From contig CABYND010000003.1 in assembly GCA_902520195.1 (NCBI GenBank), positions 1 through 64,000 on the forward strand: DNA of 64,000 nt, written 5' to 3'. A program made the position numbers and the translations under genes. Position 1 is the first letter of the stretch. Every line of letters begins with the position of its first letter. This DNA comes from Halieaceae bacterium. Its GTDB lineage: Bacteria; Pseudomonadota; Gammaproteobacteria; Pseudomonadales; Halieaceae. Under the pieces are notes generated by a model that searched no databases, had not been told where the DNA came from, and saw only the letters and a program-made list of their open reading frames with translations. This document shows, piece by piece, positions 11,263 to 40,576 of the stretch.

Positions 11263-11264
11263 GA

Positions 11265-19621: not shown

Positions 19622-19643
19622 TAGCCACCCCCATGGCCTTGCC

Positions 19644-20513: not shown

Positions 20514-20588
20514 GGACGAGATCTCCAATTTGCCCTCTACTATAGTACTCGACAACGAGTCGCCTATAGCCCTTTCGAATGACTCTGC

Positions 20589-20605
20589 CCTGCGAATGAC
20601 GCAGG
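20589..20605. repeat. Short inverted repeat between carbamoylase and hydrolase genes
   Basis: CCTGCG-AATGA-CGCAGG, a 6-base-pair stem with a 5-base loop, in the 152-base gap separating the carbamoylase gene from the next gene. No T-run follows on the minus strand, so it may be an operator or an attenuating hairpin rather than a terminator. Confidence 0.3.
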
Positions 20606-20665
20606 TAACTTGCGACCCTATGTATTCGGGTCATCCAAGTGCTCAAAAATTAAATAACCGTATCC

Positions 20666-21907
20666 TCACAGAGCATGCTCTAAAACTGCGTGCAAAAGCA
20701 CATTCCCCCCAGCTGCAACGTGATCGGGGTCCGCATATTCGGCTTCGTTGTGGGATAGCCCATCTTTGCACGGGATAAAAATCATAGATGTTGGACCCTG
20801 CAAGCTCAGGTTGCAGGCATCGTGCAACGCGCCAGAAATGATCTCCATTGAGCTATATCCGCAACGCGTTGCAGCGTTTTGTACTGATTGGATGCACTTA
20901 GCGTCGAAGTCAACGCTAGGCTTCTCCCAGTACTTTTCAAACGTAAATGCAAGCCCGGCTTCACTGCAGCAGAGTTCAACGATTTCACAAAGATCTTTGG
21001 CTATCGCGTCATGGACATCAGGTCTAGGGTCCCTGAGATCAATTTTAACCTCTAACTCACCAGGCACGGTGTTTACCGCACCAGGGTAGCAATTTATCTG
21101 TCCGAAGGTGATCCGCGACTGTGGACCGTGCTCATCAGCCACGGAGTAGAACTTCGGCAACATGACGGAAAATGCCCTGATTGGATCGCGCCGCAGACTC
21201 ATTGGAGTGGTACCAGCGTGAGCCTCCTGACCAAATATTTTTAGTCTATGCCTGCTCATTTGCTGAGTGCCGACAACGACACCAATGAGGGTATTTTGTT
21301 GCTCAAGCACCGGGCCTTGCTCTATGTGTAACTCAAAGGCCGCCTGAAACGAGAACGGTTGAGCGTCAATCTTCCCCAAAAATCCAATTCGCTCTAGCTC
21401 CGAAATCACGCTGTGACCCTGCGAATCCTTTTGAGCATGGGCGTCGGTTTCCGACAGCAACCCCGCCCAAACGGAAGACCCCATGGAGGGAGTGTCAAAG
21501 CGACACCCCTCCTCATTGGTCCAGACTACTACCTCTACCGGAGCTTGCGTTTGAATTCCCGAGTCGTTTAAGGAGTCGATCACTTCCAATCCTGCTAAAA
21601 CACCATAAACTCCGTCAAAACGTCCACCTGTCGGCTGAGTATCAAGGTGACTACCAATTAAAATCGGATCAGCATTAGGATTTGAGCCACTTCTTCGTGC
21701 AAAGATATTACCCATTGAATCGACCCGAACTTCACAAGCCGAGTTTTCGCACCAACTCATAAATAAGTTGCGTGCTTCAGCATCTTCGTCAGTAAGCGCT
21801 TGACGGTTACTACCACCATTCAAGGTAGAGCCAATTGCGGCGATGTCTTGAATTCTTTTATTCAAGCGGGCGGAGTCGATCTCGATCAGTGGTTCGTTTC
21901 TTGACAT
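20666..21907 (-). CDS. M20-family N-carbamoyl amino acid hydrolase / allantoate amidohydrolase
   Basis: A 413-residue binuclear metal amidohydrolase of the beta-ureidopropionase, L-carbamoylase and allantoate amidohydrolase group. The metal-site motifs are intact: GSHLDTQPTGGRFDG (about residues 82-96), WTNEEGCRF with the catalytic and bridging Glu, ELHIEQGPVLE with its His, and a final DGLSHNE. It would hydrolyse the N-carbamoyl product released when a hydantoin- or ureide-type ring is opened, which fits HyuAB and the NCS1 permease nearby. ATG 21907 follows AGGGA at 7 bases; a GTG one codon earlier is also possible. Confidence 0.92.
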   Translation of the reverse strand: MSRNEPLIEIDSARLNKRIQDIAAIGSTLNGGSNRQALTDEDAEARNLFMSWCENSACEVRVDSMGNIFARRSGSNPNADPILIGSHLDTQPTGGRFDGVYGVLAGLEVIDSLNDSGIQTQAPVEVVVWTNEEGCRFDTPSMGSSVWAGLLSETDAHAQKDSQGHSVISELERIGFLGKIDAQPFSFQAAFELHIEQGPVLEQQNTLIGVVVGTQQMSRHRLKIFGQEAHAGTTPMSLRRDPIRAFSVMLPKFYSVADEHGPQSRITFGQINCYPGAVNTVPGELEVKIDLRDPRPDVHDAIAKDLCEIVELCCSEAGLAFTFEKYWEKPSVDFDAKCIQSVQNAATRCGYSSMEIISGALHDACNLSLQGPTSMIFIPCKDGLSHNEAEYADPDHVAAGGNVLLHAVLEHAL

Positions 21908-21932
21908 CACGGAATCCCTATCTTTATGGTTA

Positions 21933-22069: not shown

Positions 22070-23494
22070 ATGCAGAAGACTCTTGCTCAGCGAATGGAAG
22101 ATCATGCACTTGAGCCAGTTCCAAAGGAGGACAGAAAATCTTGGATTCAACTCAGCTGGAGCACTGTCGGCATAGTTACAACTCTGTTACAGCTTTATCT
22201 AGGCGCGTTCCTTAGCTTTACCGCGGGCATCAAAATCGCGCTGATTGCAGGCTGTTTGATAGCTATTATCGGTAGCGCGCTGGGCTGGGCCACGGGCCAT
22301 ATTGCCTTTAAGTCCGGGCTCTCAAGTAGCCCGATGGCCAGGCAGTACGGACTAGGTGTGAAAGGCTCGATAATAATTTCGGGCACCTTCGCATTCATGC
22401 TCATTGGGTTTATCGCAGCAGAAAATGTGTTGCTTTATAACGGCTTTCTTTTCTACTCAGGCATAGAGGACTCCCTTATGGCAAGGATTGCCTGTTTCGG
22501 CGCACTCACTGTGGCTTGGATAAGCCTTACGGCCTTTGGATTCGAACAAGTGTCACGCGTAACCTCAATAATGTTGATAAGTTTCCTGGGCGTTCTTGCG
22601 TATATGTTGTTCGTAGTCATAGACACCAGTGGAATTCCCGTAAGCCAGGTCTTGTCTTTCCCGTCACAGTTTCCTCCGGAAGCACTTGAATCAATGGGGG
22701 CAGTTACAGACAGGGCGAAGCTGATTTTCTCTATGAACGTCCTAGCCGGCACGGCCGGCGCGCTCGCGCTTGTAGATGCAGACCTCGGACGCTACGCCAG
22801 GACGGGAAAAGACATCGCCATCGCAGCAATTTTAAGTAACTTTATGCTGAGTTTTTTCATGATTGCGGTGGGCGCTACCATTATGTATGCAGGTGTGCCT
22901 GCACTAGTTGAATATTACGTTACGACTCAGGGATTGTCTGAGGCTGCCGCCAAGCAGGTTGCCATTGAAAATCCAGACAGAATTGTTGCGGCCTTCGTTA
23001 TCTTCGGTGGAGTACTGGGCACGCTCCTGATGGTCGCGGCCAATTCCAAAGCGCAAGTCATCAACACTTACAGCAGCTCTCTAGCTCTGTCCAATTTCTT
23101 TGACGTGACCTTTAATTGGCGGCCGGGAAGAATAGTTTTTGTCATTGGAGCAAATGTCGCGGCCCTGTTCTTTCTCGGTGGAGAGTTCTTAGTTTGGTTC
23201 AAATCCTTTCTCGTAATTCTTGGCACGCTTACCACGTCCATAGCCACCGTGATTGCTGCAGATTACTTCGTTGTAAGAAAAATACAAAAAAAACAAGCCG
23301 CCAAAGGGAACTTGGTGGAGCCATGGAACTGGGCAGGAGTCCTCACCGTCGGCTTATCATTTGGATTAGCTCATTTTGCCCTGGCAGGCATTATCAAAAT
23401 ACAAGTGCTGACAGCTATCGCCACGGTGGTAATTGTCTATCCATTACTACGTCTTTTCGTTTTTAAATCGCAAATCACAGCCAACGGAACCTAA
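22070..23494 (+). CDS. NCS1-family nucleobase/hydantoin-type permease
   Basis: A 474-residue inner-membrane transporter of the nucleobase:cation symporter-1 (purine-cytosine permease) family, with about twelve hydrophobic segments beginning near residue 28 (STVGIVTTLLQLYLGAFLSF). Family members carry cytosine, uracil, allantoin, hydantoins or related ring compounds with Na+ or H+. GGGAGAG lies just before the ATG. It diverges from the carbamoylase and is followed 35 bases later by an SDR gene. It is probably the inner-membrane importer for an N-heterocycle or a ureide intermediate. Confidence 0.92.
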   Translation: MQKTLAQRMEDHALEPVPKEDRKSWIQLSWSTVGIVTTLLQLYLGAFLSFTAGIKIALIAGCLIAIIGSALGWATGHIAFKSGLSSSPMARQYGLGVKGSIIISGTFAFMLIGFIAAENVLLYNGFLFYSGIEDSLMARIACFGALTVAWISLTAFGFEQVSRVTSIMLISFLGVLAYMLFVVIDTSGIPVSQVLSFPSQFPPEALESMGAVTDRAKLIFSMNVLAGTAGALALVDADLGRYARTGKDIAIAAILSNFMLSFFMIAVGATIMYAGVPALVEYYVTTQGLSEAAAKQVAIENPDRIVAAFVIFGGVLGTLLMVAANSKAQVINTYSSSLALSNFFDVTFNWRPGRIVFVIGANVAALFFLGGEFLVWFKSFLVILGTLTTSIATVIAADYFVVRKIQKKQAAKGNLVEPWNWAGVLTVGLSFGLAHFALAGIIKIQVLTAIATVVIVYPLLRLFVFKSQITANGT

Positions 23495-24314: not shown

Positions 24315-24878
24315 CTATTTATGGTCCCCTTTGTTCTCGTAAAGAGGGCTGTAAGTCGACGATGTCATCGCCGCACCATCATAAAGACCCGTAAGGACAG
24401 AGATCAGCTCACTTGCACCTGAGAGCTTTGCATCAATATCTTCGATCAGCCCAGTCTTCTTGGTGAGTAACTTGCTTCTCACCGTAAAATAATCGGTAAC
24501 GAACTTTCTGCCTTTCTTCGACACAGCGTATGTCACAACCCGGCTGCCTGTTTTTTTAGACTGGGATAGATAACCGTTATCAACCAGTTTCCTCAGGGTA
24601 TACTGAAGATTCTGCACATCGTCTCTATTAAGTTGTCTTGCCAGGGATGAGGCAGTCGGGTGTCCTCTTTGCATTGCTACAACACCCACAACAATCACCT
24701 CCTGAAACTTGAGACCATCAGCCGTCGCCAGTCGGCTTAACTGCTCACAGCTCCTCTCGAACGCCGCAAAAAAGCGCAGAATCCCCCACTCTAGCTCTGT
24801 CACGGCTATCCCGTGGTCACCAGTTCCGAGAAGCCAGTCCCTATGCCAACTATCGGGCGAGGTGGTCACATCACTCAT
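24315..24878 (-). CDS. MarR-like winged-helix regulator
   Basis: A 187-residue DNA-binding protein. The middle part (about residues 55-125) reads as a winged helix: a recognition helix in SSLARQLNRDDVQNLQYTLRKLV followed by a wing with KKTGSRVVTYAVSKKGRKF. MarR proteins often respond to aromatic carboxylates. The ATG at 24878 is used; in-frame starts lie further upstream without better ribosome sites. It diverges from the second TonB receptor, so it may control that promoter, including the element at 25011-25041. Confidence 0.8.
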   Translation of the reverse strand: MSDVTTSPDSWHRDWLLGTGDHGIAVTELEWGILRFFAAFERSCEQLSRLATADGLKFQEVIVVGVVAMQRGHPTASSLARQLNRDDVQNLQYTLRKLVDNGYLSQSKKTGSRVVTYAVSKKGRKFVTDYFTVRSKLLTKKTGLIEDIDAKLSGASELISVLTGLYDGAAMTSSTYSPLYENKGDHK

Positions 24879-25010
24879 GTTAAGTATCATCCGTTGGATC
24901 TTGAAACAAGCGCATAACACTAGCATGCGATGAATCGCGGGCGTAGATTTTAGCGGCCCAATTTAACCGGTGATCATTGTTATCATGTGTTCGACGGATT
25001 CTGTTTTTGC

Positions 25011-27591: not shown

Positions 27592-28071
27592 ATGGTTAGG
27601 AAGATGGTGATTAACAACGAAGAGTATGTGTTGGATGCTCCCGACGACATGCCTCTTTTGTGGGTATTACGCGACATTTTAGAGCTAACAGGAACTAAGT
27701 TTGGATGCGGGAAGGCGCAATGCGGCGCCTGTACTGTCCTTATAAACGACAGCCCAGCGAGAAGTTGTGTCACGCCACTCTCAGCAGTGGCGCATCAAGA
27801 AATTACCACTATTGAAGGCTTAGCTAACCTGCCTGAGTCGTCACTCCAATATGCTTGGGTCGAGCACAACGTTCCACAATGTGGCTACTGTCAATCAGGC
27901 CAATTAATGTCTGCAGCAGCACTGCTTCGGCAACATCCTAACCCAACAGACGCCGAGATTGATCAAGGCATGTCTGGAAACATATGCCGGTGTGGCACAT
28001 ACCCCCGAATAAAAAAGGCCATCAAATCAGTCTCAACAATCTCATCGGACGTGAGCAGTGATTCAGTCTAG
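27592..28071 (+). CDS. [2Fe-2S] small subunit of a xanthine-oxidase-family hydroxylase (IorA-like)
   Basis: A 159-residue electron-transfer subunit with two [2Fe-2S] clusters: the plant-type cluster ligands Cys39, Cys44, Cys47 and Cys59, and the second set Cys97, Cys100, Cys132 and Cys134. This architecture is that of isoquinoline 1-oxidoreductase alpha subunit and related aldehyde or N-heterocycle hydroxylases. It overlaps the large-subunit gene by 14 bases. It has no signal peptide of its own and would be exported folded with the Tat-bearing partner. Confidence 0.93.
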   Translation: MVRKMVINNEEYVLDAPDDMPLLWVLRDILELTGTKFGCGKAQCGACTVLINDSPARSCVTPLSAVAHQEITTIEGLANLPESSLQYAWVEHNVPQCGYCQSGQLMSAAALLRQHPNPTDAEIDQGMSGNICRCGTYPRIKKAIKSVSTISSDVSSDSV

Positions 28072-30253
28072 AAGGGAATTCCTCACAACAGCTAGGAATG
28101 GTCTCCTACTGGGGATTATGGGGGAATCTGTCACTTCTTTCGCGGCTAGCGTTGATCAAGATCCGGAATTTTCGCCCAGCAATTTTCTCAGCATATCTCC
28201 TAGCGGAGCGGTGCGGGTGTTCGTGGGCCAAGGAGAAATGGGCCAGGACATCTTCTCTGGGTTAGCCATGCTGGTTGCGGAAGAGCTTAATACTCCATTG
28301 GATGAAGTCGCAGTTGTCGCAGCACCTGTCTCACCTGCTTTTGGCAACTCTTTTTTTCCAGGGTCACCACAAATGACCGCAGCCAGTTCGAGCATTAAGG
28401 TTTTTTACATTCCATATCGAAATGCTGGCGCGGCGGCACGCCAAATGCTCGAAACTGCTGTGAGCACGATGCTTGATAAGAGCGTGAACCGTATTCTTTT
28501 AACTAACGGCGAAGTAGTATGTGATGATAACGATCGCATTCCCCTGAAGCTTGTAATGCCCATTCTCGCAGACCTGCCTATTCCTGACAGCCTGAAACTA
28601 AAAGAGCCAAGCGAATTCCAAGTCATCGGAAATCCGCAACGCAGTATTGGAGTCGAAAAAAAGGTTAATGGCACCCTCGGGTATGGGATGGATGTAAAGG
28701 TACCGGGCGCGATGACTGCCGTAGTCGCTCACCCCCCCTCCTTCGGTGCTCAGATTACACACTTTGACTCTTCGACAGCCTTAGCAATCCCAGGCGTGCT
28801 GGAGGTCTTGAGAATTCCGACCGGCATTGCCGTTATCGGCGAAAACTACTGGGTTGCTGATTCAGGTAAGAAAGCGTTAGACATAGACTGGGACGAGTCC
28901 GCAGGGCAAAACCTGTCAACCGAAGGGATCTTAGAAACATACCGCGAACTCGCATCGAAGCCAGGCCAAGCCTTTACCTTCAACCCAATACCCGGGATGG
29001 ATTATCAGCTCAAGCCCAGTCTGGGCCCAGACGAGTACGCCCAACACAATGGCGCCGTAACGATAGAGTCGGAATTTATTGCGCCGTACCTTGCACACGC
29101 CCCCATGGAACCTTTGAACTGCACCATTTTTGAGAAGGACGGTCTGATTCATGTTCATACTGGAACTCATTATCAATTCGCAGATAAAGACGCTGTAGTT
29201 AAAACTCTTGGGGTTGACTCTTCCAGAGTCAAGCTACACACGCTGCCAATGGGAGGAAGCTTTGGCAGAAGAGCGTGTCCAAAATCAGATTGGATTACAG
29301 AAGCAGCCCAAATTTTCAAACTCGCACAAACAGCGCGGACAAATCCCATCAAGTTGGTGTGGTCGCGGGAAGATGACATTACCGGAGGGTGGTATCGGCC
29401 ACTAGTGCTGTCAAAGGTGTCTGCGGCTCTAAACCAAGATGGCACCATAGGCTCATGGGCGCAACGCATCGTCGGTCAACCAGCAATTGATCACGAGACC
29501 CTGAGCTTTATCGGGCCTGAGAACATTGACCTCACCACGGTCGATGCAGTCGGTAACCTTGTTTACGACATTCAAGACAAGGTTGTTGACGTGCACCATA
29601 CCGAAAATCTCGTGCCCGTTCAGTGGATGAGGTCTGTGGGACATTCCCACAATGTCTTTTTCGTCGAGACTTTCATGAATGAACTCGCTGATGAAGCTGG
29701 CGTTGATCAAGTCACCTTTCGACTCAACCACGCCAAAGACGACAGGGTAAAGCGAGTGCTACAGCTAGCAGCGGAAAAAGGTCAGTGGAATGGTGGCTTA
29801 AGTTCAGATGGAAAAGCCCATGGGGTTTCCGTGCACGAATTTTACGGCACGTACGTTGCCAACATGGCCGAAGTAATCCAAGTGGCTGAGAACAAATTCA
29901 AAATTGTAAAAATAGTATTTGGGGTGGATTTAGGGACCGTAATAAATCCTGATGCGGTCAGGGCACAGATGGAGAGTGGGGCTGTACTGGCACTGTCATC
30001 CACCTTGTATGGCGAGATAGACATAGACAGGGGCATGCCTAAACAATCCAATTTCGACACCTACAGACCGCTCCGATTTAACCAATGTCCAGATATAGAG
30101 ACACATATTGTCTCAAGCGATCTGCCGCCGACCGGTGCCGGCGAGACTGGGGTTCCCTCGGTCGCGCCTGCTGTCTGCAACGCTATCGCTAAGTTGAGGG
30201 GAGAGTATTTGCGGGCACTACCGATTGCCAAGCAAGGAATTGAAATCGTATAA
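28058..30253 (+). CDS. Molybdopterin large subunit, IorB-like, Tat-exported
   Basis: A 731-residue molybdenum hydroxylase catalytic subunit of the IorB type. The N-terminus carries a twin-arginine signal (SRREFLTTA followed by a hydrophobic stretch), GGSFGRR is the conserved molybdopterin segment in the middle, and GAGETGVPSV near residue 700 has the catalytic Glu. The start is a GTG inside the small-subunit gene. Relatives hydroxylate carbon next to a ring nitrogen or oxidise aldehydes, using water as oxygen source. No FAD subunit is present, as in IorAB, so electrons go to an external acceptor. No cytochrome gene follows. Confidence 0.92.
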   Translation: MIQSRREFLTTARNGLLLGIMGESVTSFAASVDQDPEFSPSNFLSISPSGAVRVFVGQGEMGQDIFSGLAMLVAEELNTPLDEVAVVAAPVSPAFGNSFFPGSPQMTAASSSIKVFYIPYRNAGAAARQMLETAVSTMLDKSVNRILLTNGEVVCDDNDRIPLKLVMPILADLPIPDSLKLKEPSEFQVIGNPQRSIGVEKKVNGTLGYGMDVKVPGAMTAVVAHPPSFGAQITHFDSSTALAIPGVLEVLRIPTGIAVIGENYWVADSGKKALDIDWDESAGQNLSTEGILETYRELASKPGQAFTFNPIPGMDYQLKPSLGPDEYAQHNGAVTIESEFIAPYLAHAPMEPLNCTIFEKDGLIHVHTGTHYQFADKDAVVKTLGVDSSRVKLHTLPMGGSFGRRACPKSDWITEAAQIFKLAQTARTNPIKLVWSREDDITGGWYRPLVLSKVSAALNQDGTIGSWAQRIVGQPAIDHETLSFIGPENIDLTTVDAVGNLVYDIQDKVVDVHHTENLVPVQWMRSVGHSHNVFFVETFMNELADEAGVDQVTFRLNHAKDDRVKRVLQLAAEKGQWNGGLSSDGKAHGVSVHEFYGTYVANMAEVIQVAENKFKIVKIVFGVDLGTVINPDAVRAQMESGAVLALSSTLYGEIDIDRGMPKQSNFDTYRPLRFNQCPDIETHIVSSDLPPTGAGETGVPSVAPAVCNAIAKLRGEYLRALPIAKQGIEIV

Positions 30254-30272: not shown

Positions 30273-31361
30273 CTATCGCTTCGCAATCTCGTCTAAGACT
30301 AAAGCACCAAATTCACAGGTTGTCACAACTTTTAGTAAAGAGTTGTGGAGAGCCAAGTCCTGAGTGACAGTGCCTTTTTCCAACACTCGAAATAATGCTG
30401 ACCACACTCGATCTGCCAAGTCTTGTCTGCCCATAGAGACTTGTAGCATCAGTGCGACGCAGCCAATCATTGAGTAGGGGTTTGCAACATTCTGGCCACT
30501 AAGACCTGGCGCTGACCCATGTGACGGCTCAAAATAAGATTTGTTGTCACCAATGCAAGCGGACGGCATAAGTCCCAATGACCCCAAAAGCCCTCCAGCC
30601 TGATCACTGAGGATGTCGCCAAACATATTTTCCATTACCATCACATCGAACGTATTTGGAGCAAGGCACATCTCGGTAGCTGCCGCATCTACTAGCATAT
30701 GCGTTACCTCTACATTCGGGTAATTCTGGGCCACCTCGCGCAAAACCTCGTTCCACAGCTCGCTAGACAACAGCACATTACTTTTGTGTATGTTGTGTAA
30801 ATGGCATCGTCTTTCTGACGCTAGGTCAAACGCGGTAACTAAGACTCTCCGAATTTGCGCCTCGTTGTACTCCAACGTCTCGCGCACATATCTCAAACCT
30901 TCACGATTCACGCCGTGCGATTTCGCCCCAAAATACAAACCGCCAACCAACTCGCGAACGATGACGAAGTCAATGCCCTCCTCTAATAACTCGTTTTTAA
31001 GGGGGGAAAACTGCTTCATTGTCGAACTCAACCTCACTGGCCGAAAATTCGCATATGTGTCATATCTCTTCCTCAAAGGAAGTATTGCGCCACGCTCCGG
31101 GCGAAACTCAATAGGAATTTTTTGCGTCTCGTCATAACTCAAGCCCACCGGGCCTTTAAGGATTACATCAGCACTATCGCAGATTAATTTGGTGTGGTCC
31201 GGGAATGGATCGCCAAACTCGAAGTACGCCCGAGCACCAAGCGGTGCCGACTCGATCTCTACGTCGAGACTCTCATCATCAATGATGTAATCAAGCACCT
31301 TGAGTGCCGCTGCCATAATCTCAGGGCCTATGCCGTCCCCGGGCAACACTGCTATTTTCAT
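30273..31361 (-). CDS. Isopropylmalate / tartrate dehydrogenase-like beta-decarboxylating dehydrogenase
   Basis: A 362-residue NAD-dependent dehydrogenase of the isocitrate/isopropylmalate family. Seen signatures are LPGDGIGPEI at the start, RELVGGLYFG, HKSNVL with the catalytic Lys, a metal-site region with NMFGDILSDQAGG, and FEPSHGSAPGLSGQNVANP. It would oxidise and decarboxylate a 3-hydroxy- or malate-type acid. A leuB-like enzyme as the last gene of an aromatic operon, without leuA, leuC or leuD, argues for a catabolic substrate such as a substituted malate or tartrate. It is 17 bases after the aminotransferase. Confidence 0.9.
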   Translation of the reverse strand: MKIAVLPGDGIGPEIMAAALKVLDYIIDDESLDVEIESAPLGARAYFEFGDPFPDHTKLICDSADVILKGPVGLSYDETQKIPIEFRPERGAILPLRKRYDTYANFRPVRLSSTMKQFSPLKNELLEEGIDFVIVRELVGGLYFGAKSHGVNREGLRYVRETLEYNEAQIRRVLVTAFDLASERRCHLHNIHKSNVLLSSELWNEVLREVAQNYPNVEVTHMLVDAAATEMCLAPNTFDVMVMENMFGDILSDQAGGLLGSLGLMPSACIGDNKSYFEPSHGSAPGLSGQNVANPYSMIGCVALMLQVSMGRQDLADRVWSALFRVLEKGTVTQDLALHNSLLKVVTTCEFGALVLDEIAKR

Positions 31362-31378: not shown

Positions 31379-32626
31379 TTAGAGACGCATTGCCCGATAA
31401 GGGGGGTTGTCAGCAACAAATTTTTTTACTTGTGCGGAGTCTTTCAAATGCATCTCTAAAAATTCGGCGGCAACTCGCAGTCGATCCGCTGATTCGGCGC
31501 AACTCATACGAATATAACCATAACCATCCTCGCCAAAAGCTTCGCCTCCCAGACAGGAGACACCAACTTTTGAATCCGCGGCTTCTAGTAGGTACATCGC
31601 CAAGCCATGAGAGGTAATACCATAACGTGTGCAATACTCTGAGACATCTGGAAACACGTAGAAGGCGCCGTCAGGAACGAGGCACTTCACACCTTCAATG
31701 TTTTGTAAGGCGCTTGCAAAGCGCTCGACGCGTTCCTTAAAGACATGCATTCGCTCATCTCGCTCGATGTTGCCCTCTCTCAGGGCCGCTGCTGCTGCTA
31801 TCTGGGAAAAGGGAGACACACAAGAAAAGCTGGTGTTTGCGAGAACAGAAAGTTTTTCAATATTTTGTGTTGAGCTGGCAGCAAAACCTACACGCCACCC
31901 ACTCATACTATACGACTTGCTCATCGTATAAACTGCGACGCATCGTTCCAACATATCTGGATGCGCTAGGGGGCTTACGTGCCCTCCAGACCACGACATT
32001 TGGTCATAAGGCTCGTCACTAAATAAGAAGACGTCGTCCCTGTCCAGAATCAGCGAGCAAAGATCAGCGACGTCTTCTTCAGTGGTGACACCGCCTGTAG
32101 GATTGTGGGGACTATTCAGGAAAACTGCTCTGGGTGAGTCGTCTTGCTCAAGAAAGCACTTAACATCTGCTAGAGATGGCCTAAATTTATTTTGCTGGCT
32201 GAGCTTCGAAGTTACCAGCCTCCCTCCGCGCCGAGCGATATTAGCGCTATATGTCGGAAAAAAAGGAGAGAAAACAAGTGCCCCATCTCCGGGGTCTAAA
32301 AAAAGTTCACAAAAAAGCTGCTGAAAAATTTTCGCTCCATTACCAACGAGAATATTATCCTCATCAACTCGAACTCCGTGCTCTCTGCTGACATAGCTGG
32401 CGGCCTCCCTCCTCAGCTCATCAATTCCCTTCGATGATACATAGTGACACTCGTCCGCCAGTATTGCGTCGGACCCCGCTAACAACGCTGGAGTGGCGCT
32501 GGCAAAGGGACTGTCGCCAATTTCCAATCTGATTACGTCCTTGCCCGTAGCCTCTAATTTCTCGGCGCGCGCCAAAACCGAGAATGCTGTCTCAGAAACT
32601 ACGGAGTTCGCGAACTGACTAAACAT
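31379..32626 (-). CDS. PLP-dependent class I/II aminotransferase
   Basis: A 415-residue fold-type I aminotransferase. The motif NSPHNPTGG binds the cofactor and substrate, and the Schiff-base Lys is in TMSKSYSMSGWRVG. The ATG at 32626 follows AGGGAC; an upstream TTG in frame overlaps the previous gene. It would move an amino group between an amino acid and an oxo acid, perhaps recovering nitrogen from the catabolised compound or converting a ring-cleavage amino acid into an oxo acid for the next enzyme, a decarboxylating dehydrogenase. Confidence 0.9.
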   Translation of the reverse strand: MFSQFANSVVSETAFSVLARAEKLEATGKDVIRLEIGDSPFASATPALLAGSDAILADECHYVSSKGIDELRREAASYVSREHGVRVDEDNILVGNGAKIFQQLFCELFLDPGDGALVFSPFFPTYSANIARRGGRLVTSKLSQQNKFRPSLADVKCFLEQDDSPRAVFLNSPHNPTGGVTTEEDVADLCSLILDRDDVFLFSDEPYDQMSWSGGHVSPLAHPDMLERCVAVYTMSKSYSMSGWRVGFAASSTQNIEKLSVLANTSFSCVSPFSQIAAAAALREGNIERDERMHVFKERVERFASALQNIEGVKCLVPDGAFYVFPDVSEYCTRYGITSHGLAMYLLEAADSKVGVSCLGGEAFGEDGYGYIRMSCAESADRLRVAAEFLEMHLKDSAQVKKFVADNPPYRAMRL

Positions 32627-32639
32627 CTGGCTTGTCCCT

Positions 32640-33974
32640 CTATACTTCTGGTGCGACAACCTCCTGGCGATCGCGCATCAGAGTATCGACAAGGGCATAT
32701 AAAATTTTTCTGGCACAGGGCATTAGGTCAGGAACGTAGGTCGCACCCATTCCCCCCAAGCCTTCAGCCACCCTTTCAGGCGAATTTTCTGCAGGCCAAG
32801 GCCATCCCAGTCTGGCGGTGGGTATACCAAGGCGACGAATGGCTGCGCCATCTGTTTGTCCCCCTAGCAAATCAGGGTCAGAGTACGCTTTCTCCTCTAC
32901 CCGCTCCCATCCGCGCCTAGCGGACTGAACTATCCAGTTATCTGGGTCGGTAGTGCCTCCTGGAACAGAACCGTACATTTCCCAATCAACCTGTGTGTCA
33001 GGATGTTCCATGCAAAAGGACCTCATAAACTCTGCAAACTGTGCTTTTACCTCAGCAGGCGAGGTGCGAGGATTGATACGGACGTCAAAGAAGATTTCGG
33101 TCGCCGCCGAAGGGAAGGCAGGGCGGTCTGGCCAGCCTGAGCGCAACGCAGAAATCCACCCATCAGGCCTCACAACACCGGAAGTGTTTCTTTGTGTGTA
33201 CTCCTGTAGCCAGGCCTCTAAATTGGTGATCAATTCGGCTGCAGGCACGATAGAACTTCTGAAACCCGGTGTGCCTCGAGGTACGCCCGCGTAACCTAAA
33301 GTACCGTGCACTGTAATTTTAAACCAGCCCATTCCGGGCTCTTCGTGGTACACCCAAATCCATGGCTTCATGATGATACAAAAATCTGGCGCAAGCCCTC
33401 TATTTAACAAATGCTCAATGCCATTGGACATGCCCGCATTATCACGCGACGGCACGTTGACAGGCATCCCGCCATCAGCGAACGCAATGTTTAGGTTACC
33501 CTTAAACTCTATTCCTGAATCAACAACCGCATTCGCCACTTCGGTCAAGGTCGCCACCATCGCCTTGGGGTTACTGGAGCCGAGCCCGTAAACCCAGTCA
33601 TCTACCAACTTGGCCTCCGGACGCATATCTACCTCTTGTGTCGGGCCGGCCCACGGAAGATCTGAATCGTCGCCCTCCAGATGAGTGTCAATTGGCGCAT
33701 ACAGTAGTAAGGTGGCCCCCGTCCCGGCTCCTTTCAACTCTCCCAGGACGTTGCCACTGATATCGTTCATTCCCATATATTTGCTAGGCAGCCCCATTTG
33801 ATTTAGGTGCTGCACCATAAATTCTGATGCTGCTCGAGTAGCACCCGTAGGACTGTGAATATCAGTAAGGGCACATAACAAAGTTTTCAGCCGGTTGGCG
33901 TCCAAGCATTTACAGCATGCTTCATAAGCCCTCTCCATCTCTGCAGTCATTGGCTTTGGCGTCGTCGGTTTCAT
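32640..33974 (-). CDS. M20-family-like protein lacking the metal ligands
   Basis: A 444-residue protein with the overall layout of ArgE/DapE-type M20 hydrolases, including a dimerisation domain (ITVHGTLGYAG region) and a C-terminal GGQTDGAAIRRLGIP. The normal metal-binding residues are absent: GHxD reads APID, the bridging Asp region reads GLGSSNPKAM, the catalytic Glu-Glu reads FADGGMP, and the next ligand Glu reads IMKPW. The frame is intact and the ribosome site GAGGAG is good, so it is a made protein. It may use another chemistry or be a non-catalytic binder. It lies between amidase and aminotransferase genes. Confidence 0.8.
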   Translation of the reverse strand: MKPTTPKPMTAEMERAYEACCKCLDANRLKTLLCALTDIHSPTGATRAASEFMVQHLNQMGLPSKYMGMNDISGNVLGELKGAGTGATLLLYAPIDTHLEGDDSDLPWAGPTQEVDMRPEAKLVDDWVYGLGSSNPKAMVATLTEVANAVVDSGIEFKGNLNIAFADGGMPVNVPSRDNAGMSNGIEHLLNRGLAPDFCIIMKPWIWVYHEEPGMGWFKITVHGTLGYAGVPRGTPGFRSSIVPAAELITNLEAWLQEYTQRNTSGVVRPDGWISALRSGWPDRPAFPSAATEIFFDVRINPRTSPAEVKAQFAEFMRSFCMEHPDTQVDWEMYGSVPGGTTDPDNWIVQSARRGWERVEEKAYSDPDLLGGQTDGAAIRRLGIPTARLGWPWPAENSPERVAEGLGGMGATYVPDLMPCARKILYALVDTLMRDRQEVVAPEV

Positions 33975-34019: not shown

Positions 34020-35300
34020 TTAAGGGGTCATTAGCTGAAGGATTTTTAGTAATTTTTGATCCTCATCGGGACGCCCAATTAGCGTCAGTCCTAATGGCAG
34101 CGATCCGGGCAATTGAATCACCGGGAATGCCGCGCACGGGACACCCAAAGCCGTCCACATGCGATTAAATACTGGGTCACCAGTGCCTTCTATACCGTGC
34201 GGTGCGTAATCTGGCGCAGCGGGAGCTACTAATACATCGCAACCATCGAAAACCTCAAGAGATCGTTCTCTGAGCTGTAAAAGCCTACCAAGTGCATCGT
34301 CGTACTCTAATTCGGAGATTGACTGAGCTGAATCCAAAAATTCTTTCGTCAAGCTGCCCACGCTGCTTATCTGAAACCCTTCTAGTGATAGGAGGCTTCT
34401 TCTCGCCTCAAAGGCGTGCACTATCTTATGAATGTTGTTCAAATCAAGAAATCGCGAGTTTGGTTTGACTTGCTTCACATCAAACATTTCTATCGGGAAT
34501 TTAGTCTCGACCACCTCCATTGCGGCTCGCACGGCGGGCGACGCCTCGGTTATCGACTGATGCTGGTATATCCCCACTGTTAACTTGTGGGGGTCTTCTC
34601 CCGCGTAATTAAGCGGCTCTATCTCTGCCAGTACCTCATCGACGAGCGATGCGTCCTTGGCTGCTCGGCAAAAAAAACCGACTGTATCGAGAGTGGGGGA
34701 TGTCTCCAGCACACCAGTCGTACTATAGCGGCCCAAAGTAGGTTTATACCCAATCACGCCGCAATAACTCGCTGGCCGAACAATGGATCCCGCCGTCTGC
34801 GTCCCGAGCGCTATAGGAGCCTGGCAATCAGCTACTGCCGCCGCAGAACCACTGGATGAACCACCTGGGGTGTGTTCAATGTTATGGGGATTACAGGTGG
34901 CACCCGGCTTATAAAGAGCAAACTCCGCCGTGACAGTCTTACCTAAAAATACGGCACCCGCTGCAACCAGCGTATCGACGACAGAGCTAGAGCTCTTGGA
35001 GATTTCTGTGGCGTAAAGTTGGCTCCCATAAGATTTGGGAGTCGAAGCCACTTCGAACACATCTTTGGCAGCAAATGGGATGCCTCTCAACTTCTCATTT
35101 TTCTTCTTGCGACTGAGCGCTTTCTTAGCCGCAAACCCATTGTCTGAGTCTAGATAGGCCCAAGCCTTAACTTCTGCCTCGCGCAAACGGATTCTCCCGA
35201 GGCAACTGTTTAAGATCTCTTCAGCGGAAACAGCACCACTTGAGAGACCCGCGAGTAGTTCACTAACAGAGCATGCGCAAAGTAGGCTAGTTGGTGACAT
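34020..35300 (-). CDS. Amidase-signature-family amidase
   Basis: A 426-residue amidase with the Ser-Ser-Lys triad of the signature family: Lys in PFAAKDVF, the cis-Ser in TPGGSSSGSAAAVA and the nucleophile Ser in GTQTAGSIVRPASYCG. It hydrolyses a carboxamide to acid and ammonia or amine. The ATG at 35300, 14 bases after the extradiol dioxygenase gene, is chosen to avoid a long overlap, though its ribosome site is poor. Context inside the ring-cleavage operon suggests it removes an amide group from a ring-opened product or the substrate. Confidence 0.9.
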   Translation of the reverse strand: MSPTSLLCACSVSELLAGLSSGAVSAEEILNSCLGRIRLREAEVKAWAYLDSDNGFAAKKALSRKKKNEKLRGIPFAAKDVFEVASTPKSYGSQLYATEISKSSSSVVDTLVAAGAVFLGKTVTAEFALYKPGATCNPHNIEHTPGGSSSGSAAAVADCQAPIALGTQTAGSIVRPASYCGVIGYKPTLGRYSTTGVLETSPTLDTVGFFCRAAKDASLVDEVLAEIEPLNYAGEDPHKLTVGIYQHQSITEASPAVRAAMEVVETKFPIEMFDVKQVKPNSRFLDLNNIHKIVHAFEARRSLLSLEGFQISSVGSLTKEFLDSAQSISELEYDDALGRLLQLRERSLEVFDGCDVLVAPAAPDYAPHGIEGTGDPVFNRMWTALGVPCAAFPVIQLPGSLPLGLTLIGRPDEDQKLLKILQLMTP

Positions 35301-35314
35301 ACGGTTAGTGGGGG

Positions 35315-36190
35315 CTAGGCCGGTGCACGATGCCCCCACATAGCGGGGGCGTCGTAAGTCTTTACAGCCCACTCTTTGTCAACAAGGCGACTGTTGGCTC
35401 CGTATTCGATACCAAACCCGGATGGAGTGATAATGTAAAACGATTGGGTATGGTCATTCGTGTGCTTGCCCATGCCCATCATTATCGGGATTCCCTTATC
35501 TTGCACAATGTCGTAGGCATACCCCACATCGTCTATCGATTTTGCCTCTAACATCAGATGATTGAAATCGCCGGCCTTGAAGGGCCCAAAAGGCGGCATT
35601 ACGGCCAGGGAATGATGCCTAGGATTACAATGAAAAAAAGTGACATCCTTTTCACCCTCATCCCAAATAATGTAATCGGAGATACGGAACCCCAATACCT
35701 CCCTGTAAAATTGAATGCTTCCTGCATAATCTTCAACAAAATAGACAACGTGCCCAAGCCCGCACTCCTCCGTTCTGTAACCCGTGATACCCCTCGCTGG
35801 CGAAAAAGGGCGCATCTCTAATTTTGGGCCGTAGAATATCTCAGACGGAAATCCACTGGCGGGATCTATGAAGCTATAGAGCTTTGTCACTTTACGATCT
35901 TCCAGTTGTTCAGCATCGCCCAAGACAGTCGCAACACCGTTGTCGTTTAAACGCTTCGCAAGCAGATCAAGGCTCTCCTCGTTTGGCACCTCCCATCCCA
36001 CATAAGCGATCGAGTCGTTCTCAGATGCCGTTACGGACAACCTGTGATGCCAATCATCCAGACGAAGATAAAAGGATTCCGTCTGGTCCTTATCTACGAC
36101 TTCCATGCTGAAGACGCTTACTGCTAAATCTTTCCAAGCTCGAGTGTCAGTAGCGTTTATCCCCACATACCCCAGACCGCTAACGCCCAT
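35315..36190 (-). CDS. Type I (VOC) extradiol dioxygenase, BphC-like
   Basis: A 291-residue two-domain vicinal-oxygen-chelate dioxygenase. Iron ligands are His147 (LGHVVYFV), His211 (DFNHLMLE) and Glu262 (FGIEYG), within two residues of the numbering known for biphenyl-2,3-diol 1,2-dioxygenase (146, 210, 260). It would cleave a catechol formed by the oxygenase encoded two genes upstream. GAGGAG lies 10 bases before the ATG. Known carbazole pathways use a class III two-subunit dioxygenase here, so this CarAa plus BphC combination is a mixed arrangement. Confidence 0.94.
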   Translation of the reverse strand: MGVSGLGYVGINATDTRAWKDLAVSVFSMEVVDKDQTESFYLRLDDWHHRLSVTASENDSIAYVGWEVPNEESLDLLAKRLNDNGVATVLGDAEQLEDRKVTKLYSFIDPASGFPSEIFYGPKLEMRPFSPARGITGYRTEECGLGHVVYFVEDYAGSIQFYREVLGFRISDYIIWDEGEKDVTFFHCNPRHHSLAVMPPFGPFKAGDFNHLMLEAKSIDDVGYAYDIVQDKGIPIMMGMGKHTNDHTQSFYIITPSGFGIEYGANSRLVDKEWAVKTYDAPAMWGHRAPA

Positions 36191-36215: not shown

Positions 36216-37244
36216 TTATTCTGGCAGGAATCGCTCAGCGAATATCCGACTCTCCGACATACCAAAGTCAGACAACACCTTTTTTGACGAATTAACCAAT
36301 CCGGGTGGCCCACAAACGTACGCTACGGCATCGCTCTCAATGTCATCTGTAGAGATGGCCTGTAATGGGTTCCCAATCAATCCCGACCAGGATTCGCCCG
36401 CGTCATCTACTGTTAATCTTGTCTCAAGCGTGGGCATCCAAGCTTTACGCAGGTCTAGGATGTCGGCGCCAAAAAACGTCTTGTCTGACGCACAACCAAA
36501 GGACAACGTTATATCGGGCTTCTTACCCGGCGCGGCTCGTATCTGGTCGAGAATTGACAATAAGGGCGCTAGCCCCGTTCCACCCGCTATCAGCAAATGC
36601 TTGGAACGCCGAAAATTCTCTCTCCAAAAGAATGAGCCGTACGGTCCTTCTAATTTAAGAATGTCGTCCACTCGCGCCTTTGTGCTCAGAAATTCTGAGA
36701 ACAACCCGCCGGGAATTACCCTGACTAAAAATTCCAACTTGGGAAGCTGTTCAGGCGAGCTAGACATCGAATATGAGCGATATATCTCAGTATTCGGGAT
36801 ATTTATCCGCATATATTGCCCCGGGGAAAAATCGGCCCAATCTCCCTCGGCTAACTCTACCCCTAACCTAACAACATCGCTGGACAGCCAAGCTATCTCA
36901 TCAATAAACACGTTGGCGGCGGCTGGTGTGGCGGCCCCTGCAGAAGTGGTGTAGTCGACCTGAAAACTACAATCGCTAAAAGCTCTAGCGCTACACAGCA
37001 GTCTCCTGCCCTCTGCTAACTCACTGTCTAGCAAGCAACCCGCCTGCGTAGCCAGTGGAGTAGCCTCTCCGTCCTCTAGTACAGCCACACAGGATCCGCA
37101 ACTCCCACTCTGACATTGATTCAAAATGGGCACGTCGGCCTTTAGCGCACCTTCCAATATGGTCTCATTGGATGTGACTGGGAATACCGCGATGTCACCG
37201 TCGGAGAACTGGACACTGACTTCATAAGATTGAACCGCGGACAT
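36216..37244 (-). CDS. Oxygenase reductase with N-terminal ferredoxin domain
   Basis: A 342-residue electron-transfer protein. The N-terminal plant-type ferredoxin has NQCQSGSCGSCV and LLC ligands; the FNR-like part has RSYSMSSSP for FAD and the NADH domain starts at GGTGLAPLLS and ends with VCGPPGLV. Such class IB-type reductases (BenC, AntC) pass electrons from NADH directly to a Rieske oxygenase. It lies 20 bases after the CarAa-like gene. It is the only oxygenase reductase in the window and may serve all three Rieske oxygenases. ATG 37244 is preferred to a GTG four codons earlier. Confidence 0.94.
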   Translation of the reverse strand: MSAVQSYEVSVQFSDGDIAVFPVTSNETILEGALKADVPILNQCQSGSCGSCVAVLEDGEATPLATQAGCLLDSELAEGRRLLCSARAFSDCSFQVDYTTSAGAATPAAANVFIDEIAWLSSDVVRLGVELAEGDWADFSPGQYMRINIPNTEIYRSYSMSSSPEQLPKLEFLVRVIPGGLFSEFLSTKARVDDILKLEGPYGSFFWRENFRRSKHLLIAGGTGLAPLLSILDQIRAAPGKKPDITLSFGCASDKTFFGADILDLRKAWMPTLETRLTVDDAGESWSGLIGNPLQAISTDDIESDAVAYVCGPPGLVNSSKKVLSDFGMSESRIFAERFLPE

Positions 37245-37264
37245 CTGGCAATTCACTCCCCGCC

Positions 37265-38611
37265 CTAAAAGTCTACTTTCCTCACAAAGTATCGGGATGG
37301 CGAGCCCTCACTGACGTCCCGAAGACGCAAACTTGATGCTTTCACCGAGCCTGTAACACCCACCCCAGGACGCGCGATGCCCCTATTACAACGCGATGCT
37401 AACTTCCTCCATGTGATTGGCGACACGTCGGTATCTACCAACTGCTCATCGTTCCAGCCGGATCCATCACCATAAAAATCTTGCATAGACTCTCTAGCGT
37501 ATAGGTCGCAGTTGTTGAAACCTCGCAAAGCCATTGGCTCGAGAACAGTCTTGTAGCGGTACTTAAATTGTTCGCGTTCCTCTTCCGTTGGGCACCTTTT
37601 GACCAAAACCTCCCAATACTCATAAGTGTCGTCCGTAATGGGCACATACCACTCGTATTGCGCGATGTATTCCTCAGGCCAATTCTCAACGAGTAACACA
37701 CCAGGAAGATAAAAAGAGGTCCTGTATGGCCTACCATTTACGCCATTCACCTTGATACCCAGTGTTTCGTTCTCAAGGATTGGCTCCCAGCGATCAGAAA
37801 ATAGCCATTGCATCAAGCCACTCGGCCCGTTGTCGTCCTCGAATGTAGTTATGCAGTCGTTTGAGACAGGCCTTATGCCTAACGGCAAAACCCAATTGTT
37901 CGATTGAACAATCATATTGTCTTGATGTATCAGTATGTGCGCATTGTCAAAGCCATTTTCGCAGGCCACACGCCAATTGGATTCGCCGGTGCGATGAATA
38001 CCAAGACCTACCGCATCCTCGTGCAGGATATGTGGTGCTGCAGGCCAAAGTGGATGAGGGAATCGCTCACTGTTGTCGGGAAACGCTAACGGAAGATCGT
38101 GCGCTAGCGGGGGAACTTCATCTAGAGGAAAGTCATCTTCGCGCACAAAGACAAACACGATACCGCATTTCTCTTCAGTCGGATAAGGCGTAACTCCTGT
38201 TGTCCCTATCAACTTATCGTCAGGGTTACCAACAATCGTATCTAAATTCCCCGTCTCAAGATTAAACGTGAAGCCGTGGTACCAACAAGAGATCGTCTCT
38301 TTATTGAAGCACATTGGCTTCGCTGACATTCTAACTCCTCTGTGGATACACCGATCTTTCAGGGCATAAACCCTTCCGTTTACTCTTCGAAGAACGATCG
38401 GAATGCCGCAGATCTGAACTCCCTCAACCTGATCTTCCTCAAGCTCCTCGCTGAAGACAGCGGGATACCAATGGTTGACGAATCCCCACTCTGCTTGCTT
38501 GTAGGGCTCATACTGGCTTTGCGTCTTCGAGTCGTTTAGACGTCGAGACGTCGCTATTACGTCGGCCCCGTCTCCACTGGAGCGGCGCCTTACAGGTGCA
38601 TCTTTTTCCAT
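37265..38611 (-). CDS. Rieske oxygenase, carbazole-dioxygenase (CarAa)-like, copy 2
   Basis: A 448-residue terminal oxygenase of the CarAa type. Rieske ligands are Cys88, His90, Cys109 and His112; the iron site ENGFDNAHILIH gives Asp222, His225 and His229. The segments GFVNHWYPAVF, FYLPGVLLVENWP and MALRGFNNCDLYARESMQDFYGD recall CarAa of carbazole degraders. An extra stretch around residues 160-210 (rich in Pro and His) is not present in copy 1 and may reshape the substrate entrance. The gene sits between a C-C hydrolase and its reductase, with 20-base gaps. Angular or lateral dioxygenation of a fused ring is the likely reaction. Confidence 0.94.
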   Translation of the reverse strand: MEKDAPVRRRSSGDGADVIATSRRLNDSKTQSQYEPYKQAEWGFVNHWYPAVFSEELEEDQVEGVQICGIPIVLRRVNGRVYALKDRCIHRGVRMSAKPMCFNKETISCWYHGFTFNLETGNLDTIVGNPDDKLIGTTGVTPYPTEEKCGIVFVFVREDDFPLDEVPPLAHDLPLAFPDNSERFPHPLWPAAPHILHEDAVGLGIHRTGESNWRVACENGFDNAHILIHQDNMIVQSNNWVLPLGIRPVSNDCITTFEDDNGPSGLMQWLFSDRWEPILENETLGIKVNGVNGRPYRTSFYLPGVLLVENWPEEYIAQYEWYVPITDDTYEYWEVLVKRCPTEEEREQFKYRYKTVLEPMALRGFNNCDLYARESMQDFYGDGSGWNDEQLVDTDVSPITWRKLASRCNRGIARPGVGVTGSVKASSLRLRDVSEGSPSRYFVRKVDF

Positions 38612-38634: not shown

Positions 38635-39528
38635 TTACGTATCTATTCTATCGAGAAAGTCACAAATTACAGAGTCATGCTCATCAGGTCTCTCCCATTG
38701 CGGCCAGTGAGCGCAATCTTTCATGACATGCATCTTCGAGTCGGAGATGAGTTCAGTTAAACGCTCTGCGGCGTCTACTCCGTGAACGGGATTCTTGTCG
38801 GTCCACATCACTAACGTCGGGCATTTAATTTCCCGAATCTCTTGCTCAGTGAAATAAAAATCGGAAATGTTCGGAGCAAACAGTCTGTCGTAATACTCCA
38901 GCAGCGCTTTCTGCGTACGAGGTATTTGCCATAGCGCCTGCCTTAAATCCACAAGTTCGTCAGTGACACCCCCCAGCGGCATTAGCCAGTCTAATCTCTT
39001 CTTCAATAGCTCCTTGGTCGGGTTCAAAAGCGCGTTTACCGATGTCTCTCGTAAAGCCGCCAAATCGCTTTCACCCTCGTGAACTTTGGTTGGGTCTAGG
39101 GCCATGCCCCAAGTAGTGTTGAGAATTACCGAGTGCGTTCTATCAGGGTGATTTATGGCCATATCGTAAGCGATCCACCCACCAAGAGACTCACCTTCCA
39201 CAGACGCCCTCTCTACCCCAAGGTGATCCATGAGATTCAGCAGCTGATCTGTAAACTGCGCTACCCAATGCGAAGACGAAGTAGGGGGATCGTCGGAGAA
39301 AGGCGGAGCGGAGGACATCCCATGCCAAATAAAATCTATGGCGATCGGCCTCGCTGATTTCGCAAGAGATGTTAGATTCCTGGAGTAGGTTTCTGCGTGA
39401 CCGCCTCCCCCATGGAGCAAAAAGAGCGGAACTTTATCGTTTTTAACTTCAATAGCCCGAGTTGTGTACTTGTCCGTGTGATAAAAATTCGTCTCGGTGC
39501 CCAATAAATCCAGGTGAATAGAGTTCAT
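38635..39528 (-). CDS. Alpha/beta hydrolase, meta-cleavage-product hydrolase-like
   Basis: A 297-residue alpha/beta hydrolase with LLHGGGGHAETY (oxyanion region, from residue 38), nucleophile Ser114 in GESLGG and His274 in CAHWPQWERP. It is first in an eight-gene operon and 23 bases before the CarAa-like oxygenase, matching the hydrolase step that follows extradiol cleavage by the BphC-like enzyme of the same operon. It resembles the hydrolase at 19644-20513 more than the classical TodF/XylF-type one at 48284-49099. GGGAG precedes the ATG. Confidence 0.9.
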   Translation of the reverse strand: MNSIHLDLLGTETNFYHTDKYTTRAIEVKNDKVPLFLLHGGGGHAETYSRNLTSLAKSARPIAIDFIWHGMSSAPPFSDDPPTSSSHWVAQFTDQLLNLMDHLGVERASVEGESLGGWIAYDMAINHPDRTHSVILNTTWGMALDPTKVHEGESDLAALRETSVNALLNPTKELLKKRLDWLMPLGGVTDELVDLRQALWQIPRTQKALLEYYDRLFAPNISDFYFTEQEIREIKCPTLVMWTDKNPVHGVDAAERLTELISDSKMHVMKDCAHWPQWERPDEHDSVICDFLDRIDT

Positions 39529-39814: not shown

Positions 39815-40576
39815 TTGACTCTACGAGTGGGATTAATAGTTCCAAGTTCAAACGTGACTATGGAGACGGAGATACCTCTATACCTGGGTAGACATGCTTT
39901 ATCAAAAGGCCAGCAAATCACCTTCCACTCCAGTCGAACGAGGATGAAAAAGGTCACGGCTCATGAGCTTCGAAATATGGCTACCGATTCGGAACGATGT
40001 GCGCGCGAGATTGCTGACGCGAACGTCGATGTAGTCGCGCATGCTTGCCTAGTGGCCACTATGTTTATGGGAACTGGCGCGCATCGGGAGCTGGAGAGAA
40101 GCTTGAGCCAGGCCATTTCCGATGAGGGCACGTCGGTTCCAGCTATCACCAGCGCTGGAGCACTTGTCCGAACTCTTAAACGAATGAACGCGAGTAAGAT
40201 AGCGTTAGTGGCGCCATACAAACCTGAGCTGACTTCGATGGTAGAAGAATATTTGAATGCCGAAGGTCTCCGTGTTGTCCGATCGATTTCGCTATCAGAG
40301 CCTGATAATCGCAAAGTCGCGCAGCTTGATGAGAGCAAACTCGCAGAGCACGTTGCGACGCTGGGAGCAGATTCGGTCGACGCGGTGATCGCCTCTGCTT
40401 GTGTTCAGATGCCATCGTTGAAAGCTCTGAGAGTGCTCGCTTCAGAGTTCCGCGTTCCATTGGTATCCGCTTCTTTGTGCACGGCCATTGAAATTGCCTC
40501 CCACCTACACCTTGTTACGGACCATCAAGGTGTGGGTGACTTAGCCAAGGCTCTGGTTTTAGGCGCAACCGCTTGA
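39815..40576 (+). CDS. Maleate cis-trans isomerase
   Basis: A 253-residue Asp/Glu-racemase-superfamily protein that should convert maleate to fumarate. The N-terminal GLIVPSSNVTMETEIP is characteristic of maleate isomerase (MaiA/NicE), and both catalytic cysteines are present: Cys78 in HACLVATM and Cys196 in SACVQMPS. The start is a TTG with GGAGG 6 bases upstream; there is no ATG before the conserved N-terminus. Fumarate would enter the TCA cycle. In nicotinate pathways this step follows maleamate amidohydrolase, for which the isochorismatase-family gene at 17739-18359 is a candidate. Confidence 0.92.
   Translation: MTLRVGLIVPSSNVTMETEIPLYLGRHALSKGQQITFHSSRTRMKKVTAHELRNMATDSERCAREIADANVDVVAHACLVATMFMGTGAHRELERSLSQAISDEGTSVPAITSAGALVRTLKRMNASKIALVAPYKPELTSMVEEYLNAEGLRVVRSISLSEPDNRKVAQLDESKLAEHVATLGADSVDAVIASACVQMPSLKALRVLASEFRVPLVSASLCTAIEIASHLHLVTDHQGVGDLAKALVLGATA

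Follow-up and report, generated by a model that had tools for sequence, protein, structure and literature searches.

What does an M20-fold protein do in a catabolic gene row when the residues that bind metal in its relatives are gone? M20 enzymes are textbook metal-dependent hydrolases, and the question is raised by one gene, here called M20L, in the window, that is, the whole stretch of 64,000 nucleotides analysed, from an incomplete (68.9%) genome of a Halieaceae bacterium.

32640..33974, minus strand: M20L, M20-fold protein without the M20 metal ligands (Pfam, PDB search, alignment, AlphaFold2 model, Foldseek, conservation in 82 sequences)

The gene and its predicted fold

An earlier note on this DNA, made from the sequence alone, had described frame and fold as intact, and both points were borne out. 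The ORF encodes 444 amino acids and is open from an ATG at 33974 with GAGGAG upstream. Its match to the Pfam M20 family (PF01546) is weak, at 29.8 bits with a cut-off of 24.6, and just 8 of 43 M20L members reach that family at an E-value of 0.001. No NCBIfam model scored above its cut-off for the one M20L member tabulated, and the curated DapE/ArgE models all scored M20L far below theirs. The AlphaFold2 model, built from 43 orthologues, has a mean pLDDT of 89 and a pTM of 0.89, and the structure prediction that the note had proposed recovered the M20 fold, with a predicted catalytic and a predicted lid domain as also indicated by Pfam and Foldseek. The 12 top PDB matches of the model were all chains of 5-nitroanthranilate aminohydrolase (NaaA; TMq 0.76-0.83); the remaining 38 of the 50 matches listed had a TMq of at most 0.71. 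A PDB sequence search likewise returned NaaA first (E 2.4e-19), followed by the next M20 protein at E 1.8e-4. Among PDB matches, NaaA is thus the nearest relative of M20L by both sequence and fold, although the identity between the two is only about 21% (Foldseek).

The emptied metal site

An M20 site consists of the ligands His, Asp, Glu, Glu/Asp and His with a Glu as general base. In M20L, where the motifs at this place read APID, SSNPK, ADGGM and IMKPW, the ligand positions hold Pro, Asn, Met (or Gly), Lys and no counterpart of the last His, and the base position holds Gly. Alignment with the DapE of the same genome and with NaaA, in what we take to be the DapE residue numbering, gives H67 to P94, D100 to N135, base E134 to G169, E135 to M170 and E163 to K203; near the two Glu positions and the final ligand His the columns are uncertain by one or two, and a shift by one column puts G168 and G169 at E134 and E135. 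D96 of M20L is the retained partner Asp of the HxD motif. The last ligand (H349) is also missing, the final His of M20L being residue 324. The sites concerned are as follows:

33681..33695, minus strand: P94-I-D96-T-H98, the HxD motif with His replaced by Pro, Asp kept and a new His two residues on (alignment, conservation)
33564..33575, minus strand: S134-N135-P-K137, bridging Asp replaced by Asn, a state common to NaaA (alignment, conservation)
33465..33476, minus strand: D167-G168-G169-M170, general base Glu and ligand Glu lost (alignment; D167 is Gly in the 53%-identical member)
33360..33368, minus strand: K203-P-W205, ligand Glu/Asp replaced by Lys (alignment, conservation, 53%-identical member)

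The note's central claim, a protein without metal ligands or base, therefore agrees with the alignment, and the same states were found in 82 of 82 sequences. From these residues we infer that M20L probably carries no metal. The note had further called the loss specific because a second M20 protein of the window has all ligands. That protein (20666-21910) does hold the motifs SHLD, RFDG, TNEEG, LHIEQG and LSHNE, to which we assign the roles of M20 site motifs, but it is of the hydantoinase/carbamoylase type and thus a distant subfamily, so that the comparison is a weak control and says little about M20L. Better controls are the same-genome DapE and the NaaA-like group described below. The second M20 protein lies in a group on the minus strand (18356-21910) with a second Rieske oxygenase and an alpha/beta hydrolase, adjoined by a permease at 22070-23494; this second Rieske oxygenase is of the same Pfam family as the one beside M20L and 33% identical to it, and the group is perhaps a sister pathway for another nitrogen compound.

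DapE and ArgE share with M20L the fold (TMq up to 0.71 among the matches listed), the Asp of the HxD motif and a DMK-like Lys, whereas M20L is without their ligands, base and terminal His. NaaA (PDB 5k8m-5k8p) stands closer, with an Asn in place of the bridging Asp and a Tyr at the position of the lid His, both as in M20L, and it acts on an aromatic amine, as its PDB name aminohydrolase states. In the part aligned, however, NaaA retains the His of the HxD motif, the Glu that serves as base and a Glu at E163, and Zn and Mn forms are among its PDB entries; of its metal-site residues H, E and E and its catalytic R289, M20L has none, the aligned residues being P94, G169, K203 and A286. The R289A form of NaaA traps an intermediate (PDB title). 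Since R289 corresponds to A286, a position that is Ala in most orthologues and is not conserved as Arg, the mechanism of M20L cannot be that of NaaA.

Four proteins of an unnamed NaaA-like group (L005, L010, L011 and L105), closely alike across families, keep the His, one Glu at the base position, the Glu and the His near the end, and already have Asn at the bridging Asp site and Ile at the second Glu. As these ligand-bearing relatives already have the Asn, the loss looks stepwise, and the residue patterns suggest an order of two-metal M20 site, then NaaA-like site, then no site, with the NaaA-like group as a possible half-way stage. In the tree, M20L stands apart from this group with a support of 93/99, which is below the tree's own star threshold; a fragment from G082 lies on a very long branch and its placement means little.

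Conservation across the orthologous family

M20L is a conserved orthologous family and not one odd gene. A first genome scan with the single M20L protein as query found no relative; a scan with an alignment gave 98, of which the best 80 were kept and joined with a Cupriavidus plasmid copy and the window protein to form the set of 82. The 81 orthologues, from Alpha-, Beta- and Gammaproteobacteria, are 61-74% identical to the window M20L.

The search for conserved alternative residues that the note had suggested had this outcome: P94, D96, H98, N135, K137, D167, G168, G169, M170, K203 and W205 are identical in 82 of 82 sequences, as are E211, E212, Y228, R284, Q373, D375, W391, W393, M409 and C420. 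Because the alignment scan required IMKPW[NI]W or YHEEPGM, the invariance of residues 201-216, K203 included, is partly by construction. Positions of the former active-site motifs are invariant at 32 of 39, against 126 of 444 in the whole protein; with residues 200-216 left out, the figures are 28 of 35 against 117 of 427 (p about 2e-11, a guide only, as the motifs were picked by the analyst from known M20 sites). These motifs are the most constrained part of M20L.

Members found without the motif patterns, including three orthologues from the sampled genomes and plasmids, also carry K203. A pattern-free search gave, among others, a ligand-free member at 53% identity (L125) in which PIDTH, SNPK, GGGM and KPW are kept, as is E211, the Glu that opens EEPG, and with them the catalytic candidates D96, H98, K137, K203 and E211; it differs at D167 (Gly), E212 (His) and T412-Y413 (Ser-Asn). 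In G082, a form at 36-37% identity is divided between two contigs; its first three sites read Ala, Asn and Gly-Gly, and the contig ends before the Lys site is reached. No ligand-bearing homologue above 31% identity occurred among the matches inspected in sampled genomes and plasmids (two plasmid matches at about 27% left out), and the viral contigs searched held no M20L relative.

The operon and its conserved companions

M20L stands in a same-strand row of alpha/beta hydrolase, Rieske oxygenase, reductase, extradiol dioxygenase, amidase, M20L, aminotransferase and isopropylmalate-dehydrogenase-like genes with gaps of -58 to 45 bp; it begins 45 bp after the amidase and overlaps the next ORF by 20 bp. 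The operon setting of the earlier note holds, its co-transcription being suggested by strand and spacing. The genes of the row and others of kinds found at M20L loci are listed here:

38635..39528, minus strand: alpha/beta hydrolase of the C-C (meta-cleavage product) hydrolase type (family search, locus comparison)
37265..38611, minus strand: Rieske oxygenase, best PDB match 2-oxo-1,2-dihydroquinoline 8-monooxygenase (OxoO, 1z01; 734.7 bits)
36216..37256, minus strand: ferredoxin/FAD/NAD reductase, presumed partner of the Rieske oxygenase (family search, locus comparison)
35315..36190, minus strand: BphC-type extradiol dioxygenase (family search)
34020..35372, minus strand: amidase-signature amidase with the catalytic Lys/Ser/Ser present; overlaps the next ORF by 58 bp, and its true start is probably inside this ORF
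31379..32659, minus strand: class I/II aminotransferase, downstream of M20L (window only among 82 loci)
30273..31361, minus strand: isopropylmalate/tartrate-dehydrogenase-like protein (window only among 82 loci)
24315..24926, minus strand: winged-helix (MarR-like) regulator (same kind in 38 of 82 M20L loci)
48284-49099, minus strand: C-C hydrolase (kind found beside M20L in 44 of 82 loci)
49124-49882, minus strand: Asp/Glu/hydantoin-racemase-like protein (kind found beside M20L in 44 of 82 loci)

The aminotransferase, found at 1 of 82 loci, lies outside the conserved gene set. Beside the operon on the plus strand, two ORFs at 27592-30253 have relatives in 4 and 2 of the 82 loci; we take the pair to be IorAB-like, that is, the 2Fe-2S and molybdenum parts of an isoquinoline 1-oxidoreductase. 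Divergent from the operon, an arylmalonate-decarboxylase/maleate-isomerase-like protein (39815-40576, plus strand) is of a kind present in 12 of 82 loci.

Among the 57 loci flanked by 6 kb or more in both directions (the window included), the reductase and an amidase are both present in all 57, the amidase in 53 by the window-amidase query at E 1e-20 and in the four that missed this cut-off (L062, L073, L087 and L093) by other amidases of the set as query. The window-type Rieske oxygenase is present in 53; three of the four genomes concerned carry it outside the flank, and the genome of L040, a MAG, is without it. Wherever compared, the strand is that of M20L (reductase 77/77 loci, amidase 74/74 loci). 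Two apparent exceptions were rejected: a reductase-M20L fusion in L070 (807 aa ORF), whose extra N-terminal part is an out-of-frame translation, and the absence of the amidase from L022, L057 and L095, an effect of ORF choice.

Median identity to the window proteins is 65.9% for M20L, 66.9% for the Rieske oxygenase, 44.8% for the reductase and 28.2% for the amidase, of which the catalytic Lys and Ser residues are identical in 69 of 69 aligned sequences. M20L is thus held as tightly as the substrate-specific oxygenase, and the amidases seem to have been exchanged. In a mirror-tree comparison, the pairwise distances of M20L correlate with those of all partners (r 0.78-0.85), so that no single partner stands out. 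Among 97 relatives, a Rieske oxygenase at 70% or above occurs in G000, G025, G068 and G029, and M20L in G000, G025 and G068; in G029, without M20L, the OxoO pieces lie at contig ends.

The M20L at 53% identity in L131 (G1197; 8730-11373 and 17784-19128) has an amidase as its neighbour, and no OxoO-like Rieske oxygenase was seen within 20 kb. A three-subunit molybdenum hydroxylase lies 6 kb on, which raises the question of whether this locus represents a second use of the amidase-M20L pair. In L062 (5424-8352), a styrene-monooxygenase-type gene (Pfam Smoa_sbd) and a flavin reductase lie directly upstream of reductase and M20L, a styrene-monooxygenase-type gene of the same group being found in L045, L076 and L093, four loci in total. 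Genes for an RND transporter and a Ycf48-like protein stand next to the cluster in many loci (e.g. L079, L085 and L091), an arrangement seen in pathways for hydrophobic compounds; with them occur further genes that we take to be DUF1302/DUF1329-like.

The pathway

In the PDB, the window Rieske oxygenase matches OxoO first and then carbazole dioxygenase at 291.5 bits. A Rieske oxygenase of this type was found in eight of nine genomes compared. A dioxygenase that scores above the curated cut-off for 3-carboxyethylcatechol 2,3-dioxygenase (MhpB) has homologues in eight of the nine, a search that covered genomes other than the window's own, and in six of them within 20 kb of OxoO. MhpB acts on the known end product of the 8-hydroxycoumarin pathway, 2,3-dihydroxyphenylpropionate. 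The link of M20L to an OxoO-type pathway is a strong one. Molybdenum hydroxylases (MoCoBD_2, E at most 1e-20) were absent from the cluster contig in all nine genomes, two of which had none at all. In this the M20L clusters differ from the quinoline pathway of Pseudomonas putida 86 (OxoO, XenA), which runs through 8-hydroxycoumarin and whose OxoO is the nearest relative of the window Rieske oxygenase among solved structures. Without such a hydroxylase in the cluster, quinoline itself may not be the substrate; the styrene-monooxygenase-type gene at four loci and the second, BphC-type ring-cleavage set at many also speak against plain quinoline. What is actually degraded may be a different benzo-fused lactam, or something larger that is broken down by way of one.

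For the quinoline pathway, one source gives 2,8-dihydroxyquinoline to 8-hydroxycoumarin and ammonium, then 2,3-dihydroxyphenylpropionate (PMC9029321), and another reports that XenA reduces 8-hydroxycoumarin (PMC5519977). A third makes a dioxygenase, encoded by 'hdo', responsible for the pyridine-ring step, the passages considered giving no supporting data (PMC11945285), and so conflicts with a hydrolytic step. Across open-licence PMC, intermediates are named for the release of nitrogen from 8-hydroxyquinolinone, and no tested enzyme was found for it.

Two other catabolic systems were considered and set aside. Auxin (iad) loci had come into question because a MarR regulator and a Rieske oxygenase stand beside M20L; the available portions of PMC12633357 and PMC9613470 name no such protein, the term 'M20' appearing twice in the latter. 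For riboflavin/lumichrome catabolism, PMC12746152 has, in its available part, a different gene set and no M20 term.

Proposed reaction and competing explanations

Nitrogen must leave the hydroxylated lactam, and the conserved set offers two hydrolase-like proteins for this, the NaaA-like M20L and the amidase. We give just under an even chance to the reading that M20L is a catabolic enzyme of the OxoO-type (quinolin-2-one) pathway, descended from a metal-dependent aminohydrolase of the NaaA kind and working without the M20 metal site. More tentatively, it is possible that an M20 fold has here turned into a metal-independent hydrolase that would break an aryl C-N bond by means of Lys, His and Asp residues in the emptied site, would supply the nitrogen release of quinolinone degradation and would do so in a widespread family; that M20L, like NaaA, releases ammonia hydrolytically from an aromatic amine is suggested by context.

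The Rieske oxygenase, by its homology to OxoO acting on 2-oxo-1,2-dihydroquinoline, would hydroxylate a benzo-fused lactam next to the nitrogen. The resulting 8-hydroxy-lactam would be bound by M20L in the old metal cleft, where K203, K137, D96, H98 and E211 may provide acid-base or charge catalysis while water attacks the nitrogen-bearing aryl carbon, possibly via a keto/acyl-imine tautomer allowed by the new hydroxyl. Cleavage of the aryl C-N bond would yield a primary amide, which for a quinolinone would be 2,3-dihydroxycinnamamide. The amidase would then free ammonia from this amide, with 2,3-dihydroxycinnamate or the corresponding lactone, 8-hydroxycoumarin, as product, and the ring would be finished by two enzymes whose families are present, an extradiol dioxygenase and a C-C hydrolase. 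Overall, the scheme would fill the step from 8-hydroxy-2-oxoquinoline to 8-hydroxycoumarin and ammonia. The high identity of M20L and Rieske oxygenase and the low identity of the amidase are as expected if the former two have to recognise the specific substrate, while a simple amide is all that the amidase meets.

The main rival, which we nonetheless consider unlikely, reverses this order: the amidase would open the lactam to 3-(2-amino-3-hydroxyphenyl)acrylate, and M20L would then remove the amino group of this free aromatic amine by hydrolysis, the reaction of NaaA on 5-nitroanthranilate. Such an amine is nearest to the NaaA substrate type. In many loci the amidase gene is also the one closest to M20L, and the pair persists in L131, where no OxoO was seen; a median identity of 28% would, however, be odd for an amidase that must recognise a bicyclic lactam, and cis-aminocinnamates tend to reclose to lactams. 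Rather improbable in our estimate is a catalytic metal kept in or near the old place by new ligands (e.g. D96, H98, E211 and D375). These residues and C420 do not vary in any of the 82 sequences, and the NaaA-like relatives already look mononuclear, with Asn for the bridging Asp and Ile for E135, but all five M20 ligands and the base have been lost, with Lys in place of one ligand and Pro in place of another, and no His is found beyond residue 324.

The loss of the whole catalytic set and the constant company of reductase and amidase would also fit a non-catalytic pseudoenzyme serving the amidase or the Rieske system as scaffold, chaperone or allosteric subunit. This has precedents in transferrin receptor and nicastrin, animal receptors or scaffolds with the di-zinc peptidase (M28) fold without its ligands; M20L differs from them in that it belongs to a catabolic operon of bacteria and that its remodelled site is strictly conserved. 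Conservation concentrated in the former active-site loops, presumed partners that diverge far more than M20L itself and distance correlations about equal for all of them make such a role distinctly improbable. For a decaying gene, a frame artefact or an oddity of one genome nothing speaks beyond the missing ligands, and the open frame, the confident model and site states invariant across the whole set exclude chance or decay, so that this explanation is refuted and keeps a negligible probability.

Significance

If the preferred reading of M20L as a catabolic enzyme working without the M20 metal site is true, a family of at least 80 species shows the passage from a metalloenzyme to a metal-free enzyme in which the fold was kept, the metal site dropped and the replacements frozen, with the NaaA-like group, holding the Asn and keeping the other key residues, as an apparent half-way stage still alive for comparison. 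A gene would also be assigned to the release of nitrogen from 8-hydroxyquinolinone, encoding proteins that annotation pipelines would otherwise label as M20 or ArgE/DapE peptidases.
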